Shown here: positions 1,547 to 6,853 of the stretch, in pieces
Numbering within the stretch: position 1 is the stretch's first letter
Layout: every line of letters starts with the position of its first letter
Assembly (NCBI GenBank): GCA_030622125.1
Contig: JAUXGM010000091.1
Location: 1-8,369, forward strand
Source of the DNA: a bacterium
GTDB lineage: Bacteria > AUK180
Direction: 5' to 3'
Length of the DNA: 8,369 bases
Program-made: the position numbers and the translations under genes
Notes under the pieces: generated by a model
What the model saw: the letters and a program-made list of their open reading frames with translations, nothing else
What the model was told of the DNA's origin: nothing
The model's database searches: none

Positions 1547-1843
1547 ATGTTCAAGCAAAATTTAAGATTCAGAATAGACGATGACGCAATGTTCACAAGA
1601 TTAGATGATGAAACCATTATATATAACAATAAGACCTCCTATTATTATACATTGAATGAAGTCGGTAGTGAGATATTTAAATTGATCTCGGATGATTTGG
1701 CGTTTGGTGAAATCGTAAAAACTATTTATGATAACCACAAAACCGATATTAGTATTGATGTAGTGAAAAACGATGTATTTGAAATACTAAATGACCTCCT
1801 TTCCGAGAAAATAATTGTAAAAGTAGATGATCATTCTAAATAA
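1547..1843 (+). CDS. PqqD-family peptide chaperone (RiPP leader-recognition protein)
   Basis: At 98 residues this has the length and pattern of PqqD-like winged-helix proteins. The hallmark is a beta-wing followed by a helix: 'DDETIIYNNKTSYYYTLNEV' (about 20-39), then 'GSEIFKLISD' (40-49), a helical linker, and a second helix pair ending near residue 93. In PqqD, lasso B1 and related proteins this fold is the RiPP recognition element: it binds the leader of the precursor as an added beta-strand and presents it to the modifying enzymes. A ribosome binding site (AAAGGAT, 1534-1540) precedes the ATG. Its 3' end overlaps the McjB-like gene by 17 nt, so translation is probably coupled. Here it most likely pairs with the radical SAM enzyme and the precursor at 3264-3416. 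The family assignment is firm; the exact client is inferred. Confidence 0.88.
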   Translation: MFKQNLRFRIDDDAMFTRLDDETIIYNNKTSYYYTLNEVGSEIFKLISDDLAFGEIVKTIYDNHKTDISIDVVKNDVFEILNDLLSEKIIVKVDDHSK

Positions 1844-2237
1844 AATCCTTATAAGAATAGAAATTATGATATATCTTGCCTTGATAGAAACTTTGTTTTT
1901 TTTTAATATTTCACTTAGAACTTCTGTACGCATTTTAAAGAAAATTCCTGTAATTAAATTTCACTCCAATGATGATCGCATTGTGTCATCAATAAATTGG
2001 GTTTTGTATAAAAAACTACTTGGACTGCATTTTTTCGTTGGGAACTGCATGAGATATAGTTGCTTGCTTTACTTATTCCTTAGCAAAGAATATGAAGATA
2101 TTTCTTTGTCTATTGGAGTGAAAAAGGAAAATGGGAGAATAAAGGCACATTGCTGGCTCGAAAAATGCAGCAAACTTTTTTATGAACCGCACACAACAAA
2201 GGTCAATTATAAAAAATTAGGAGAATTTAGAGGATGA
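1827..2237 (+). CDS. McjB/B2-like transglutaminase-fold leader peptidase
   Basis: This 136-residue protein matches the core of lasso-peptide B2 (McjB C-terminal) proteins, cysteine-protease-like enzymes that remove the leader. The segment 'GNCMRYSCLLYLFL' (72-85) carries the expected nucleophile Cys74. It is followed by 'SIGVKKENGRIKAHCWLEKC' (95-114), the family's GV...AHxWxE pattern with catalytic His108. The third catalytic residue, usually Asp 12 after the His, is Glu120. The N-terminal third is hydrophobic (about 14-30) and may be a membrane-associated or buried helix. The first ATG (1827) lies inside the PqqD-like gene. An ATG at 1866 (residue 14) is an alternative start, and neither has a strong ribosome binding site. 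The stop overlaps the radical SAM start as ATGA. It lacks a separate N-terminal RRE domain, which fits the stand-alone PqqD gene upstream. Confidence 0.82.
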   Translation: MIILNKILIRIEIMIYLALIETLFFFNISLRTSVRILKKIPVIKFHSNDDRIVSSINWVLYKKLLGLHFFVGNCMRYSCLLYLFLSKEYEDISLSIGVKKENGRIKAHCWLEKCSKLFYEPHTTKVNYKKLGEFRG

Positions 2238-3283
2238 AGATAATTAAAGATATAAAACACATACAAAATGAAATGATTGAAAAAAGGATACCGATATCCG
2301 TGAACATTGAACTCACTCATAGATGTAATTATAATTGTATTCATTGCTTGAGAGACATTAGAACGACACCGGAACTTTCTACGGAAGAAATTGTGGATAT
2401 TCTACATCAATTGAAGGAGGCGGGGACATTAGAACTTGCAATAACAGGTGGAGAGGCATTATTACGAGAAGATATATGGGAAATTCTTGATGAGGTTAAG
2501 AAGCTTAAATTTTCAACTACATTCTTTACAAATGGTTGGCTTGTAACGGAAGATGTTGCTGAACGGTTATCCAAATATAATTTGAGAAGTGTTGATATAA
2601 GCATCTATGGAATGGATCCGAAAATCCATGATAAGGTAACAACAGTTCACGGTTCATTCAATAAATTAATGGAAACAATTGATCTTTTACAAAAATATAA
2701 TGTTCCGATAAGGTTGAAAATGCTGCTTTTCAATTTCAATGTTGATGAATTACCAAAGGTTTACGAGTTTGCAATGCAAAAAAAGTTACCATTTTCATTT
2801 GATGAATTGATTTTCATTGCAGATTCCGGTTCGGCACATCCTCTAATGTATACTGTTTATGGAGGACAGATAAAATTCATAGAAAAATACCGTCTGAAGC
2901 TATCTTCAAGAGAAAGGATTTGGGTGGATTACAGTGTTGAAAAAAGATCGGGAGCAAGAATAATGTGCACCGCCGGAAGAACAACTGCCGCTATAACGCC
3001 AGATGGTTATTTGCTGCCTTGTATCGTTTGGAGAACCCAAATCGGTAATCTTAAAAAAACACAATTCAAGGTATTATGGAAAAACTCAAAAAAAATCAGA
3101 AAAATACTTGACATTAGTGATGAAAATTTTGTAAAATGTTTTACATGCAGATTAAAGGCTAATTGTCGGGTCTGTCCCGGAATGAATGAAACGGAATATA
3201 AAAATCCTTTCGTTCCAAGTCCACAGAAATGCAGGTTGACCGAAATTAAAACGGAGGTGCTTGATGAGTACAAACAGATATAG
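2234..3283 (+). CDS. Radical SAM/SPASM peptide-modifying enzyme
   Basis: The 349-residue protein has a classic radical SAM core. CNYNCIHC (Cys31, Cys35, Cys38) binds the 4Fe-4S cluster that cleaves S-adenosylmethionine, and 'ITGGEALLRED' (70-80) is the GGE SAM-binding strand. The C-terminal SPASM domain holds seven more cysteines in the expected layout: C245-x12-G258-x4-C263, then C302-x2-C305-x5-C311-x2-C314, and C333. They should bind one or two auxiliary clusters. SPASM enzymes next to a PqqD protein and a small precursor usually install thioether, C-C or related crosslinks on that peptide, and that is the likely role here. There is no built-in N-terminal RRE domain, consistent with the separate PqqD protein. 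AGGAG at 2219-2223 precedes the ATG, which overlaps the upstream stop. The last 20 nt overlap the precursor gene. The bond chemistry cannot be read from the sequence. Confidence 0.93.
   Translation: MKIIKDIKHIQNEMIEKRIPISVNIELTHRCNYNCIHCLRDIRTTPELSTEEIVDILHQLKEAGTLELAITGGEALLREDIWEILDEVKKLKFSTTFFTNGWLVTEDVAERLSKYNLRSVDISIYGMDPKIHDKVTTVHGSFNKLMETIDLLQKYNVPIRLKMLLFNFNVDELPKVYEFAMQKKLPFSFDELIFIADSGSAHPLMYTVYGGQIKFIEKYRLKLSSRERIWVDYSVEKRSGARIMCTAGRTTAAITPDGYLLPCIVWRTQIGNLKKTQFKVLWKNSKKIRKILDISDENFVKCFTCRLKANCRVCPGMNETEYKNPFVPSPQKCRLTEIKTEVLDEYKQI
3251..3259 (+). promoter_or_regulatory. Strong ribosome binding site of the precursor peptide gene
   Basis: ACGGAGGTG contains GGAGGT (3253-3258), 5 nt before the ATG at 3264 and inside the end of the radical SAM reading frame. 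It is the best Shine-Dalgarno match within the peptide cluster after the AGGAGG at 1188. It decides the start of this small gene and fits a need for a lot of precursor. Confidence 0.75.
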
Positions 3284-3416
3284 CAAACCGATACTTGTAA
3301 AATATGAAAAAGTGCGGGATGTTACTACCGCAAGTGTTATGGCGGAAGGAACTGCTAATGCAGCAGATTGCACACTGACAAGATGTACAAGTGAACCGCC
3401 AACAATAAAAGGCTAA
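3264..3416 (+). CDS. RiPP precursor peptide, 50 residues, with YxxPxL leader motif and two C-terminal cysteines
   Basis: This small gene overlaps the radical SAM gene by 20 nt and has a strong ribosome binding site. The N-terminal part, 'RYSKPILVKYEKVRDVTTA' (5-23), contains Tyr6-x-x-Pro9-x-Leu11, the motif by which lasso-type leaders dock on B1/PqqD recognition domains. A Gly/Ala-rich stretch (27-34, 'AEGTANAA') follows and would suit a leader/core boundary. The last 16 residues, 'DCTLTRCTSEPPTIKG', hold the only two cysteines (36 and 41, four residues between) with several Thr and one Ser. These are candidate sites for radical SAM thioether or other crosslinks (Cys, Thr) and for phosphorylation (Ser43, Thr). 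No lasso cyclase is encoded nearby, so a lasso fold is unlikely. The motif, size, position and neighbours together make the precursor role likely. Core boundaries and modification are inferred. Confidence 0.85.
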   Translation: MSTNRYSKPILVKYEKVRDVTTASVMAEGTANAADCTLTRCTSEPPTIKG

Positions 3417-3424
3417 AAGAATAA

Positions 3425-4404
3425 TTGAATAAATTAACCATTTTAAATACTACTTTACAACAACTTCAAGAAAAAGTAGTGTTAAATTTTTTTTTAAAAA
3501 ACCGTTTTCATTTTTAAATTTATCATTATATACAAACTCCCCCGACATTATAAAGGTATTAAAGAATTATTCCCCTGTTCAGGAATTTTCTAATAAATTA
3601 AATTTCAAGTTTTTTTTTTATGATACAAAGGGATTTTCTCTCGGATATACAATTAATCTTTCAGGTGAAGATAAAATTCATAGTGAAGCACTGTTTGATA
3701 TTTACTTGTATAATGATCTCTATTTTATTTTTCTGAATAAAAATTTTTATATTAAGATAGATATTGAAAATAAAGAGGTCTCAATCTTTGGCAATGTGAA
3801 TAAAAATTGGAACAAAAATTATCTGCAACAGTTTGTATTTACACCTATCATAGAAATACTTATGCGTTTAAACGGTTTTTTTTCGCTTCATGCAGGTGGA
3901 GTTTCAAAAGGCAAAGATTGTTTACTAATACTCGGCAACAGTGGCGTAGGAAAGACCCTTAATACCTTAATGTTTTTGAAAAATGGATATAAATTTATGG
4001 GAGATGATACGATATTTCTTGATAATTCATTAAATGTGTATCCATTTTTAAAACCGATACATCTTACAAAAAATTCTTTTAGATATTTGAATAATTTAAA
4101 ATCCGTGAATATTCCGAAGATAGACAAAGAAACATATTTTGTAGAAGATCTTTTATATAAAAAACAATATACAACACGATCAAAAAAAATAAAAGGGGTC
4201 TATTTTTTAGATAGTAAAAGGGATAAAAATTATATAAAGAAAATAAAAAAAAGCGATTGCTTTAAAAGAATACTTTCATATTCACTTGTACCGATATCAA
4301 AAAAGAGTAATTTGGAACAGATGAAGATCATTGAAGAACTCGCAAAAATACCTACCCATCAAGTTGGATTAAAAAACGGGGAGTTTTTAAAAGATGTCAT
4401 TTAA
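3425..4404 (+). CDS. HPr-kinase-like (HprK-related) kinase; start and N-terminal frame uncertain, apparent -1 frameshift near 3493-3502
   Basis: The C-terminal 232 codons (from TTG 3706) contain an HprK-type P-loop kinase core: 'SLHAGGV', then Walker A 'GNSGVGKT' (3934-3957), and 'YKFMGDDTIFL' with the paired aspartates typical of HPr kinases. Relatives in lasso-peptide clusters phosphorylate the precursor, and others accompany PqqD proteins in exopolysaccharide loci. The kinase frame stays open back to 3433 and its sequence there looks like real protein ('LGYTINLSGEDK'), but it has no ATG or GTG start. A TTG at 3425, 8 nt after the precursor stop, opens the neighbouring frame ('MNKLTILNTTLQQLQEKVV') and runs to TAA at 3515-3517. 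A -1 shift at T9A6 joins the two into about 326 residues, a normal length for such kinases. Otherwise the gene is broken or starts late at 3706. The last 11 nt overlap the ligase gene. Confidence 0.72.
3442..3495 (+). terminator. Terminator-like hairpin with T9 tract between precursor and kinase
   Basis: The arms 3446-3456 and 3473-3483 pair over 11 bp (perfect core ACTACTTT/AAAGTAGT plus one G-U and two A-U pairs). After a bulged A3445, three more pairs follow (3442-3444 with 3484-3486). The loop is 16 nt. A run of nine T (3487-3495) starts directly at the base of the stem. This is the layout of an intrinsic terminator, though the stem has only two G-C pairs and would be weak. Partial termination here would give much precursor mRNA and less kinase and ligase mRNA. 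It overlaps the proposed N-terminal coding part of the kinase. Confidence 0.5.
3493..3502 (+). other. Candidate slippage/-1 frameshift site
   Basis: Read in the frame of TTG 3425, the sequence is T TTA AAA AAC. It holds two overlapping X XXY YYZ heptamers (T TTA AAA and A AAA AAC), correctly phased for a -1 ribosomal shift. The T9 run just upstream (3487-3495) could also let RNA polymerase slip. Either event moves the reading into the long kinase frame. No clear stimulatory structure is seen downstream; the only hairpin lies upstream. A simple indel or assembly error in the homopolymer would look the same. Confidence 0.4.
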
Positions 4405-6853
4405 TAAAAATTTTTTTATTACTATTTCTTTCTTGTTCATATCAATAATCATATTAAACTTTCAGGTTCATTTTACTGGGAATCTCATTTTAATTTTTAT
4501 TATATACATTTTTGTGTTCGGTTTGCCGAGTGCGTTTGTATTTAAAGATGCAACGGATTATTATCTAATCACCGCACTTTCCATTTTGCCTTTTATATTC
4601 TGGTTCAAAACACATAATCCATATATAATAAAGACACCGATATTTTATATTTTTATGACATTAGCACTAATTTCATTTATTAGAACGAAGAAAAAATTGA
4701 TGTTCAATTTTTTTGATATCATTGTTTTTAGCGGACTTATCTTTATGTTCATATATTCATCTATCGGTAAGTATTATAATGCAAGATTTTCGGAACTTTC
4801 CATTCAATTAAATAGTTTTTTTCTGGTTTATTTGTTGGTTCGATTTTCCAAAAGTAAGACAAAAATAGCAAATTTTTTGATCTATATCGGAACCATTATA
4901 TCACTATACGGCATAATTCAATGGATGGGACAGGATCCTTTTGTTCCAGGCGAACGATTTAGTATCCCCTTCAAATCAAGAATAATAGGAACGCTTGGAA
5001 ATCCCAATTTTTTTTCCGGCTACCTTATCGGCATTTTTTCTCTGACTTTTTATCTATTTTTACAGAATAAAAAAAAACTATTCCTTTTTGCTTCTATAAT
5101 TCAGTTCATTGCACTTTTAGCAACGGGAACTCGAGGAGTTTTTATTGCATTTCTCTTTTCTCTTTTATTACTCGTCATTTACAACAAAAATATTAAAAAG
5201 TTTATCATACCAATTCTATTATTTATTGCATTGCTTTTTATTGTTCCATCAATGCGACAAAGGATGATCACTGCTCCATCACAAATATTGAATAAAAAAG
5301 GTTCTCTCGGGCAAAGGGAATTGATGTGGAAGACAGCCTTATCAATGATAAAAAACCGCCCATTAGGAATTGGGTTAGCCGGATACAGATTATTTTATCC
5401 TGATTACCAGGGCAGGAATTTAGATGATCCTGCTTTTTTAATTCTTTCAACACATGCCAGACATCCGCACAACCAATGTTTGGAATGGGCTACTGCCGGT
5501 TCTATCTTTCTCTTTTTTTGGTATATATTTTTAGGTATTTTTGTAATAATGATTTTTTCAAAAATAAAGGATAAAAGCTATTATGCTGCCTTTGCTTTTT
5601 CATTTATTGTAATCTTTATACACAATTTGATATCAGTGGTTATCAACTATGAACCACCACTTTCAAATCTTGGGTTTATGTTGGCAGGAATTTCATTTAT
5701 ACTGGGAAAAGAAAAATTCAAGATCAGCAAGAATTTTCTCCTGATCCCATTGATTCTTAATATTATATTTATTCCAATGTGGTGGAAGAAAGTTATCGGT
5801 AGCTATTATTTCGCTCAGGGCGTCGGTTATATCAATCTTTATCAAGAAAGACAGGATCCGAATTTCTTAAAAGATGCAAATAAAAAATTAAAACAAAGTT
5901 CACGGTATGATAATCGCTTCGTTAATACATGGTATAGAATAGGCAACAGCTATACCCTTCTTGCAAAAAAAGCCGGTGAAGAGAAAGAAAGGATAAAATA
6001 TCTTGAAAAAGCAGTTAAGTATCTTAAAAAAGCAGATTCTCTTAAACCTTCCTATTATGAAATAAGATACAACATTGGACTTGCATTGATAAATTTGAGA
6101 AGATACGATGAAGCCGACAGATATTTAAAAAGTGCAATGGAAATAGAGCCGTATAAATTAAATATAATAAGGCAATGGTGCGAACTTTTTATAGGCAAAA
6201 ATCGAGATCTGTCAAATAAAAAAAACCTTTCGGAAATAGAAAAAAGATTAAATTATCTTAGAAAAAGTATTGAATTACAGGAAAAGTCTTTAAACTATTT
6301 GAGTGGAGGCAAGAAGGATATTTCAAATAGTGAAATTTTGACATCAAAATTATATTTGTCCAAGCAATTGGGATTTATTAACTATAAAACTGAAAATTAC
6401 AAAAACGCAGCAGATTATTTTTTAAAAGGGTATAATATTGCAAAGTCGGTAAAAAAGGAAAATGAGATAAAATTATTTCTAAATAATCTTCTTGCGATTG
6501 CAAGGAGGCAAAAAGATATTTCACTGGAAAAGAAATATTTGGATTTGCTTATGAACCATTTCCCACATTCTGCTGAGGTTTATTTAGAAAAAGCAATTTA
6601 TAGTATTAAATATGGTAATCAAAAACTCGGAATTGATATGATCAACAAACTTTTAGAAAGAGCAAAAGAAGAGAAAGTAAAAAACAGAATCTATACCCGT
6701 ATATTAAAAAATGGAGACCTCTCTATCTTTAAAAATCTAAATTGTTCTTCAAAGATAAAAACTCTTGCAAAATATATTGAAGTCAACGGTGTAAACAAAA
6801 ATGATCTGAATAAAAAATTCCCAACTCTAAAGGAGATCATAAATGGATTATGA
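4394..6853 (+). CDS. O-antigen ligase/polymerase (Wzy_C family) membrane protein with C-terminal TPR domain
   Basis: The 819-residue protein has about 12-13 hydrophobic segments up to residue 465, then a soluble helical tail. The membrane part carries O-antigen ligase/Wzy signatures: 'GTLGNPNFFSGYL' (199-211), 'TGTRG' (244-248), and a large periplasmic loop (about 285-368) with 'NRPLGIGLAGYRLFYP' and 'HARHPHNQCLEW', whose His/Asn cluster matches the family's conserved loop. These enzymes join or polymerise undecaprenyl-linked glycans outside the inner membrane. Some relatives glycosylate proteins. The tail (about 480-760) has TPR-like helix pairs, clearest at 'YNIGLALINLRRYDEADRYL' (559-578), probably for partner binding in the periplasm. 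The ATG at 4394 has GGGGAG at 4379-4384 and overlaps the kinase end by 11 nt. The end overlaps mazG by 11 nt. Acceptor and donor cannot be told from the sequence. Confidence 0.88.
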   Translation: MSFNKNFFITISFLFISIIILNFQVHFTGNLILIFIIYIFVFGLPSAFVFKDATDYYLITALSILPFIFWFKTHNPYIIKTPIFYIFMTLALISFIRTKKKLMFNFFDIIVFSGLIFMFIYSSIGKYYNARFSELSIQLNSFFLVYLLVRFSKSKTKIANFLIYIGTIISLYGIIQWMGQDPFVPGERFSIPFKSRIIGTLGNPNFFSGYLIGIFSLTFYLFLQNKKKLFLFASIIQFIALLATGTRGVFIAFLFSLLLLVIYNKNIKKFIIPILLFIALLFIVPSMRQRMITAPSQILNKKGSLGQRELMWKTALSMIKNRPLGIGLAGYRLFYPDYQGRNLDDPAFLILSTHARHPHNQCLEWATAGSIFLFFWYIFLGIFVIMIFSKIKDKSYYAAFAFSFIVIFIHNLISVVINYEPPLSNLGFMLAGISFILGKEKFKISKNFLLIPLILNIIFIPMWWKKVIGSYYFAQGVGYINLYQERQDPNFLKDANKKLKQSSRYDNRFVNTWYRIGNSYTLLAKKAGEEKERIKYLEKAVKYLKKADSLKPSYYEIRYNIGLALINLRRYDEADRYLKSAMEIEPYKLNIIRQWCELFIGKNRDLSNKKNLSEIEKRLNYLRKSIELQEKSLNYLSGGKKDISNSEILTSKLYLSKQLGFINYKTENYKNAADYFLKGYNIAKSVKKENEIKLFLNNLLAIARRQKDISLEKKYLDLLMNHFPHSAEVYLEKAIYSIKYGNQKLGIDMINKLLERAKEEKVKNRIYTRILKNGDLSIFKNLNCSSKIKTLAKYIEVNGVNKNDLNKKFPTLKEIINGL

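Follow-up and report, generated by a model that had tools for sequence, protein, structure and literature searches.

Lasso B2 peptidases work with a Cys-His-Asp triad, and the full consensus of lasso leaders is YxxPxLx3Gx5T. The YxxPxL part of these leaders occupies positions -17 to -12 and is usually followed by a threonine at -2 (PMC10368454), and the rings of known lasso peptides consist of 7-9 residues (PMC5067487). YxxP leaders occur in other RiPP classes too, and sactipeptides offer examples of discrete RREs paired with YxxP/WxxP leaders (StsC, PMC12710340). Phosphorylated lasso peptides (paeninodin, pade; bsf cluster of Bradymonas) combine a Y(-17)xxP(-14)xL(-12)...T(-2) leader, which has Ile at -2 in bsf, with separate B1 and B2 proteins and an HprK-type kinase. 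In the sactipeptide system StsA/StsB/StsC, a discrete PqqD-like RRE for an aromatic-x-x-Pro leader is paired with a SPASM radical SAM enzyme, and WgkB/WgkC-type clusters likewise pair PqqD and radical SAM proteins.

The window, meaning the whole stretch of 8,369 nucleotides that was analysed (contig C81 of a 2.08-Mb genome), encodes in this order a PqqD protein, B2, a radical SAM/SPASM enzyme, a small peptide, an HprK-like kinase, a Wzy_C/TPR protein and MazG (Table 1). Leader pattern, separate B1 and B2 and the spacing of the kinase active site agree with pade and bsf; in contrast to these, the cluster has a radical SAM/SPASM enzyme in place of cyclase C, a conserved CxLxRC motif and no Asp or Glu at core positions 7-9, the last point depending on the predicted cut site. 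Its lasso-type B2 and kinase may set the cluster apart from StsA/StsB/StsC, and the thioether is here a proposal. Among NCBIfam models, the radical SAM enzyme matches WgkB best (5e-37) and the PqqD protein has WgkC in second place (1.4e-08), but these scores lie far below the curated cut-offs and the precursor is without the W-G-K motif. The small gene, its homologues, the selection on it, the PqqD-B2-rSAM-peptide-kinase-Wzy_C order and the catalytic residues are read directly from the sequences. They probably describe the precursor of a RiPP that uses lasso-type leader machinery and whose core would be modified by a radical SAM/SPASM enzyme in place of the lasso cyclase.

Table 1. Features of the cluster, in coordinates of the window
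Feature	Coordinates	Strand	Evidence and remarks
PqqD-family recognition protein (B1-like)	1547-1843	+	PF05402 2.6e-09; best PDB relative TbiB1, 7e-05
Lasso-type B2 leader peptidase (Transglut_core3)	1827-2237	+	C74, H108, E120
Radical SAM/SPASM maturase	2234-3283	+	CxxxCxxC and full SPASM cysteines
Shine-Dalgarno GGAGGT	3253-3258	+	5 nt 5' of the ATG; GGAGG in all relatives
Precursor peptide gene	3264-3416	+	ATG at 3264, stop after 50 codons; ORF reading and alignment with homologues
Leader motif Y6-S-K-P9-I-L11	3279-3296	+	Alignment; lasso register -17 to -12 (PMC10368454)
T21-T22	3324-3329	+	T21, at -2, is invariant; B2 would cut behind residue 22
Predicted 28-residue core ASVMAEGTANAADCTLTRCTSEPPTIKG	3330-3413	+	Predicted from the Thr(-2) register
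C36-x-L38-x-R40-C41	3369-3386	+	Invariant in alignment and both paralogs; presumed radical SAM target
HprK-like lasso-peptide-kinase homologue	3425-4404	+	About 326 aa if a -1 shift occurs at T9; plain ORF list only 3706-4404
11-bp hairpin	3446-3483	+	Upstream of T9, z -2.55; possible attenuator; missed by the terminator scan
T9 tract	3487-3495	+	Same position and exact length in four window-family loci; slippage or -1 frameshifting proposed
Wzy_C/O-antigen-ligase-like TPR membrane protein	4394-6853	+	Next gene wherever a relative's contig is long enough, both families

The precursor gene translates as MSTNRYSKPILVKYEKVRDVTTASVMAEGTANAADCTLTRCTSEPPTIKG. An earlier sequence-only reading had pointed to a 50-codon frame with a GGAGGT site, a 20-nt overlap with the radical SAM gene and the residues Y6, P9, L11, C36 and C41, all of which are exact. 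A homologue of 51 aa lies at the equivalent place in five other genomes, directly 3' of the orthologous radical SAM gene (loci L002 in G004, L003 in G001, L007/L013 in G003, L014 in G005 and L015 in G006), and the overlap is kept in every relative. Together with the window these genomes form two families of one class (f1 with the window, L002, L003 and L013; f2 with L014 and L015). Homologous loci that lack the frame or carry random stops had been named as the observation that would count against the gene; all five relatives carry it intact, with zero in-frame stops. The order from PqqD to kinase is identical in all of them, with the L015 contig ending inside the kinase gene. The cassette is kept in six of the seven genomes of the class and is absent from G002, a 91% complete genome of the window's family. 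Alignment A1 is invariant at M1, Y6, K8, P9, L11, K13, Y14, T21, E28, G29 and T30 and, in the C-terminal part, at C36, L38, R40, C41, E44, P45, K49 and G50. Unlinked paralogs, both at contig ends, are found in two f2 genomes (L043, 63-209, and the end of L044); they retain Y, KP, L, T, EGT and C-x-L-x-R-C, while E44 is not kept. Behind the L043 paralog lie RmlD and a RelA-like gene. When a precursor profile was run against 386 genomes, matches outside the clade were leader-level or spurious only. Comparison of the genomes thereby confirms the small gene as real, and as one overlooked for its shortness.

With Y6 set at -17, P9 falls on -14, L11 on -12 and T21 on -2, an exact fit to the lasso register. 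The position of the consensus glycine is taken by Glu, Asn or Ser in these precursors. The PqqD protein points the same way, as its nearest PDB relative is a lasso B1 protein and its nearest NCBIfam model is lasso_PqqD_Bac; by homology and register, it would bind Y6-x-K-P9-x-L11 and present the peptide. The earlier reading of the peptide as a precursor with a PqqD-type recognition motif and two conserved cysteines is supported, while the lasso nature of the leader and of the neighbours had been overlooked. Since other PqqD/radical SAM RiPPs use YxxP, this motif alone is not diagnostic, and the diagnostic elements are B2 and the Thr(-2) register, which are conserved jointly in all six loci.

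Both B1 and B2, the pair that marks a lasso peptide cluster, are present, B2 being weak in the window family. In the window, B2 scores just over the cut-off of PF13471 (7.6e-06, 26.3 versus 26) and just under that of NF033537, lasso_biosyn_B2 (1.1e-07, 32.3 versus 33 bits). The L013 protein has zero Pfam matches; profile scores are weak throughout f1 and good in f2, whose homologues exceed the NF033537 cut-off. Cys74 and His108 are invariant in 12 of 12 aligned sequences and an acid follows 12 residues past the histidine in 11 of them, which fits the lasso B2 triad. An AlphaFold model from three sequences was poor, with a pLDDT of 62, and gave only noise in Foldseek, and the B2 profile had no match among PDB sequences. 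The assignment of the f1 proteins as B2 thus draws on weak profile scores, synteny and catalytic residues. From the exact register, the Cys-His-Asp/Glu protease is predicted to cut after Thr21-x22 and would release a core of about 28 residues.

The radical SAM enzyme is closest in the PDB to the sactisynthase SkfB (6e-23). It would act on the C36-x-L-x-R-C41 loop, most likely by linking Cys through a thioether to Leu38, Arg40 or some other acceptor residue. Crosslinks from Cys to Thr, which had been suggested earlier, are weakened by the alignment. No core threonine from residue 37 to residue 47 is kept in every relative (Thr37 is replaced by Ala, Thr39 by Gly or Asn, Thr42 by Gly and Thr47 by Ala or Pro), so that threonine was rejected as the conserved partner. 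Leu38 and Arg40, which lie between the two cysteines, never change and are the top candidates for the acceptor should thioethers be formed. A disulfide, an epimerisation or a C-C crosslink may be formed instead.

Such an enzyme together with conserved core cysteines is one mark of sactipeptides and ranthipeptides, a thioether from Cys sulfur to carbon being another, and it is quite conceivable, if somewhat short of probable, that the product is an ordinary member of these classes in which the radical SAM enzyme crosslinks Cys36 and Cys41, with the B2-like protein incidental or a generic leader peptidase. The full SPASM enzyme with its kinship to SkfB and to the sactipeptide maturase model of StsB, the invariant Cys pair and the precedent of StsC speak for this. 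Against it stands the joint conservation of B2 and the exact Thr(-2) register in all six loci, and the S-C bond on which it builds is a putative one. The two explanations overlap, as they differ on the role of B2 and agree on the radical SAM step.

Selection on the peptide bears on what the product is used for. Comparison of the window with L002 gives a dN of about 0.22 against a dS of about 1.8, and from EGT onward the codon changes comprise 10 synonymous and 2 non-synonymous ones. Identity in the same comparison is 76% for the peptide, 68% for the radical SAM enzyme, 47% for B2 and about 35% for the kinase. Judged by these alignments, conservation within the cluster peaks in the precursor core, which is under strong purifying selection. 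An alignment of related clusters had been expected to keep Y-P-L and both cysteines around a variable stretch; the motifs are indeed kept, and the stretch between them is not variable. This conservation suggests a fixed physiological product and not a diversifying antibiotic. A cofactor-like or signalling peptide that serves the producer, as the PQQ or mycofactocin precursors do, is accordingly entertained as a possibility of a tentative kind, compatible with a lasso-type leader route. The retention of the cassette across the class agrees with it, and no cognate transporter or immunity gene was recognised in the conserved cassette. On the other hand, no dependent redox enzyme was recognised beside the cassette, and only the Wzy_C/TPR gene travels along. 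The Wzy_C/TPR protein may take part in the same pathway, or its target may be surface glycans. Upstream of the cassette, the window holds a 107-aa Cys-containing ORF without Pfam match (1202-1525), at a position where the relatives hold an ABC-transporter ATPase gene.

A true lasso peptide, closed by a cyclase encoded elsewhere in the genome and tailored further by the radical SAM enzyme, is improbable. Lasso leader, B1, B2 and kinase are all there, and PF00733 proteins are encoded in all genomes with the cluster. However, no cyclase is linked to the loci, the PF00733 genes lie on other contigs only, and the majority of them, with open frames of about 600-650 aa, match ordinary asparagine synthetases in size. 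Moreover, if the cut falls behind residue 22, just one conserved acid lies near the core start, at core position 6 (E28). The locus has the make-up expected of a RiPP, a short precursor gene that stands with an RRE protein and a modifying enzyme and is conserved across genomes. A chance ORF at 3264-3416, where the radical SAM gene ends, for which shortness, overlap with the upstream gene and zero Pfam and NCBIfam matches could be cited, is rejected with near certainty by conservation in six genomes, low dN/dS and two unlinked paralogs.

The kinase active site has the same spacing as H-G-G-G-K-S-D-D of BsfK (+15, +18, +20, +21, +22, +38, +39), with T for S. The pattern H-x14-G-x2-G-x-GK[ST]-x15-DD is found in the window and the f1 loci, where L002 has at most one additional residue between H and G. 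The kinase may phosphorylate the core, and the best candidate sites are residue 24, which is Ser or Thr in eight of eight precursors, and the invariant Thr30. In the f2 kinase of L014 the P-loop is degraded and D-E stands in place of D-D, so phosphorylation may not be general. A kinase AlphaFold model from three sequences was of low confidence.

The least expected observation of the analysis concerns how this kinase is read. The T9 tract of the window recurs at 7256-7264 in L002 and L003 and at 5960-5968 (minus strand) in L013. Within 12-13 kb, T9 is the only run of at least nine A or T in L002, L003 and L013, while the window, which is AT-rich, contains five. ATG, GTG and TTG are absent from the kinase frame between its upstream stop and T9, and for 71, 41, 41 and 23 codons after T9 (window, L002, L003 and L013). 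A short ORF that starts with TTG or GTG just 3' of the peptide stop enters T9 in the other frame, and a -1 shift at T9 joins the two ORFs into 326, 324, 324 and 324 aa, respectively. The start-less stretch can be aligned to the N-terminal part of the f2 kinase: the match of the window with L014 spans the shift and covers 108 residues (E 3e-05, four-sequence comparison), while the matches of L002 and L013 are weak (E 0.5-1). Within this stretch, L002 and L003 differ by two synonymous changes and one non-synonymous change, too few alone to prove coding. The window-family kinase thus appears to need transcriptional slippage or a -1 frameshift at T9. A plainer alternative is a start at the first in-frame TTG or GTG (3706 in the window), with the upstream similarity as a decayed remnant.

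At the counterpart site, the f2 loci have strong intrinsic terminators between precursor and kinase (L014 5205-5231 and L015 5340-5368; z -4.3 and -6.2), followed by an ordinary kinase ATG. These terminators probably keep precursor transcripts in excess. In f1, the U-tract of such an attenuator behind the precursor gene may have been absorbed into the kinase gene, whose synthesis would then need slippage. The 11-bp hairpin before T9 is found in the window, and none is present in L002 and L003.

Loci with B2 and a radical SAM enzyme extend beyond the class. B2 matches occur in 37 of 386 sampled genomes, and a radical SAM motif lies within 1.5 kb of B2 in 9 of 30 fetched loci, seven of them outside the window's class. 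RRE-Finder lists about 300 discrete lasso-type RREs that co-occur with radical SAM enzymes (PMC7470986). The window group is one branch of this broader arrangement: the radical SAM enzymes of the B2 loci in other phyla fall into different subfamilies, mostly shortened at the C-terminus, and CxLxRC is missing from every precursor found there. The same leader register is found at L079 (YTKPTLTKHKPLRDIT), L078 (FVKPMLIRHESLPEVT) and L083 (FIEPKLTKQESLVKST). L079, from another phylum, also shares the PqqD-B2-rSAM-precursor-kinase order, but its cores are very short and Cys-free and its radical SAM enzyme is 25% identical and without the full SPASM cysteines. Its cluster (1980-2280 and 5812-6129) has two precursors with lasso leaders and a nucleotidyltransferase gene behind HprK, and two further lasso-leader ORFs lie upstream (YERPILRRVGWLRDVT and YQRPTLRRVGWLRDVT). 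PqqD-HprK-radical SAM-B2 clusters are present in L080, L081 and L082, where the search gave no convincing precursor candidate; their phylum has a B2 gene in all four sampled genomes.

The YxxP part also accompanies radical SAM enzymes that have no B2 next to them (L088, L092, L100 and L102). In another phylum, a conserved precursor family YSKPVLTKYGTVKDVY[TN]GPSCKAIM lies beside SPASM radical SAM genes (L046 5202-5330, minus strand, with PqqD too; L088 2550-2678; L089 2544-2672; L092 2513-2662), and a second family, RPY.KP.IK...IKDTFLACGKC, occurs in L100 and L102.

Searches of the literature turned up no cluster of lasso leader, B2 and radical SAM enzyme, which is weak evidence as subscription papers were mostly outside reach. 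The cluster joins two RiPP worlds that are usually classed apart, a lasso-type leader, peptidase and kinase on one side and a radical SAM enzyme on the other, and similar B2-radical SAM pairs exist in several other phyla. As a tentative proposal, it may represent a RiPP group of its own, built on a rewired lasso apparatus (B1, B2 and kinase) with the cyclase exchanged for a radical SAM/SPASM enzyme, in which the dose of the kinase would be set by an attenuator and T9 slippage, and whose single conserved CxLxRC product would be used by the producer itself.
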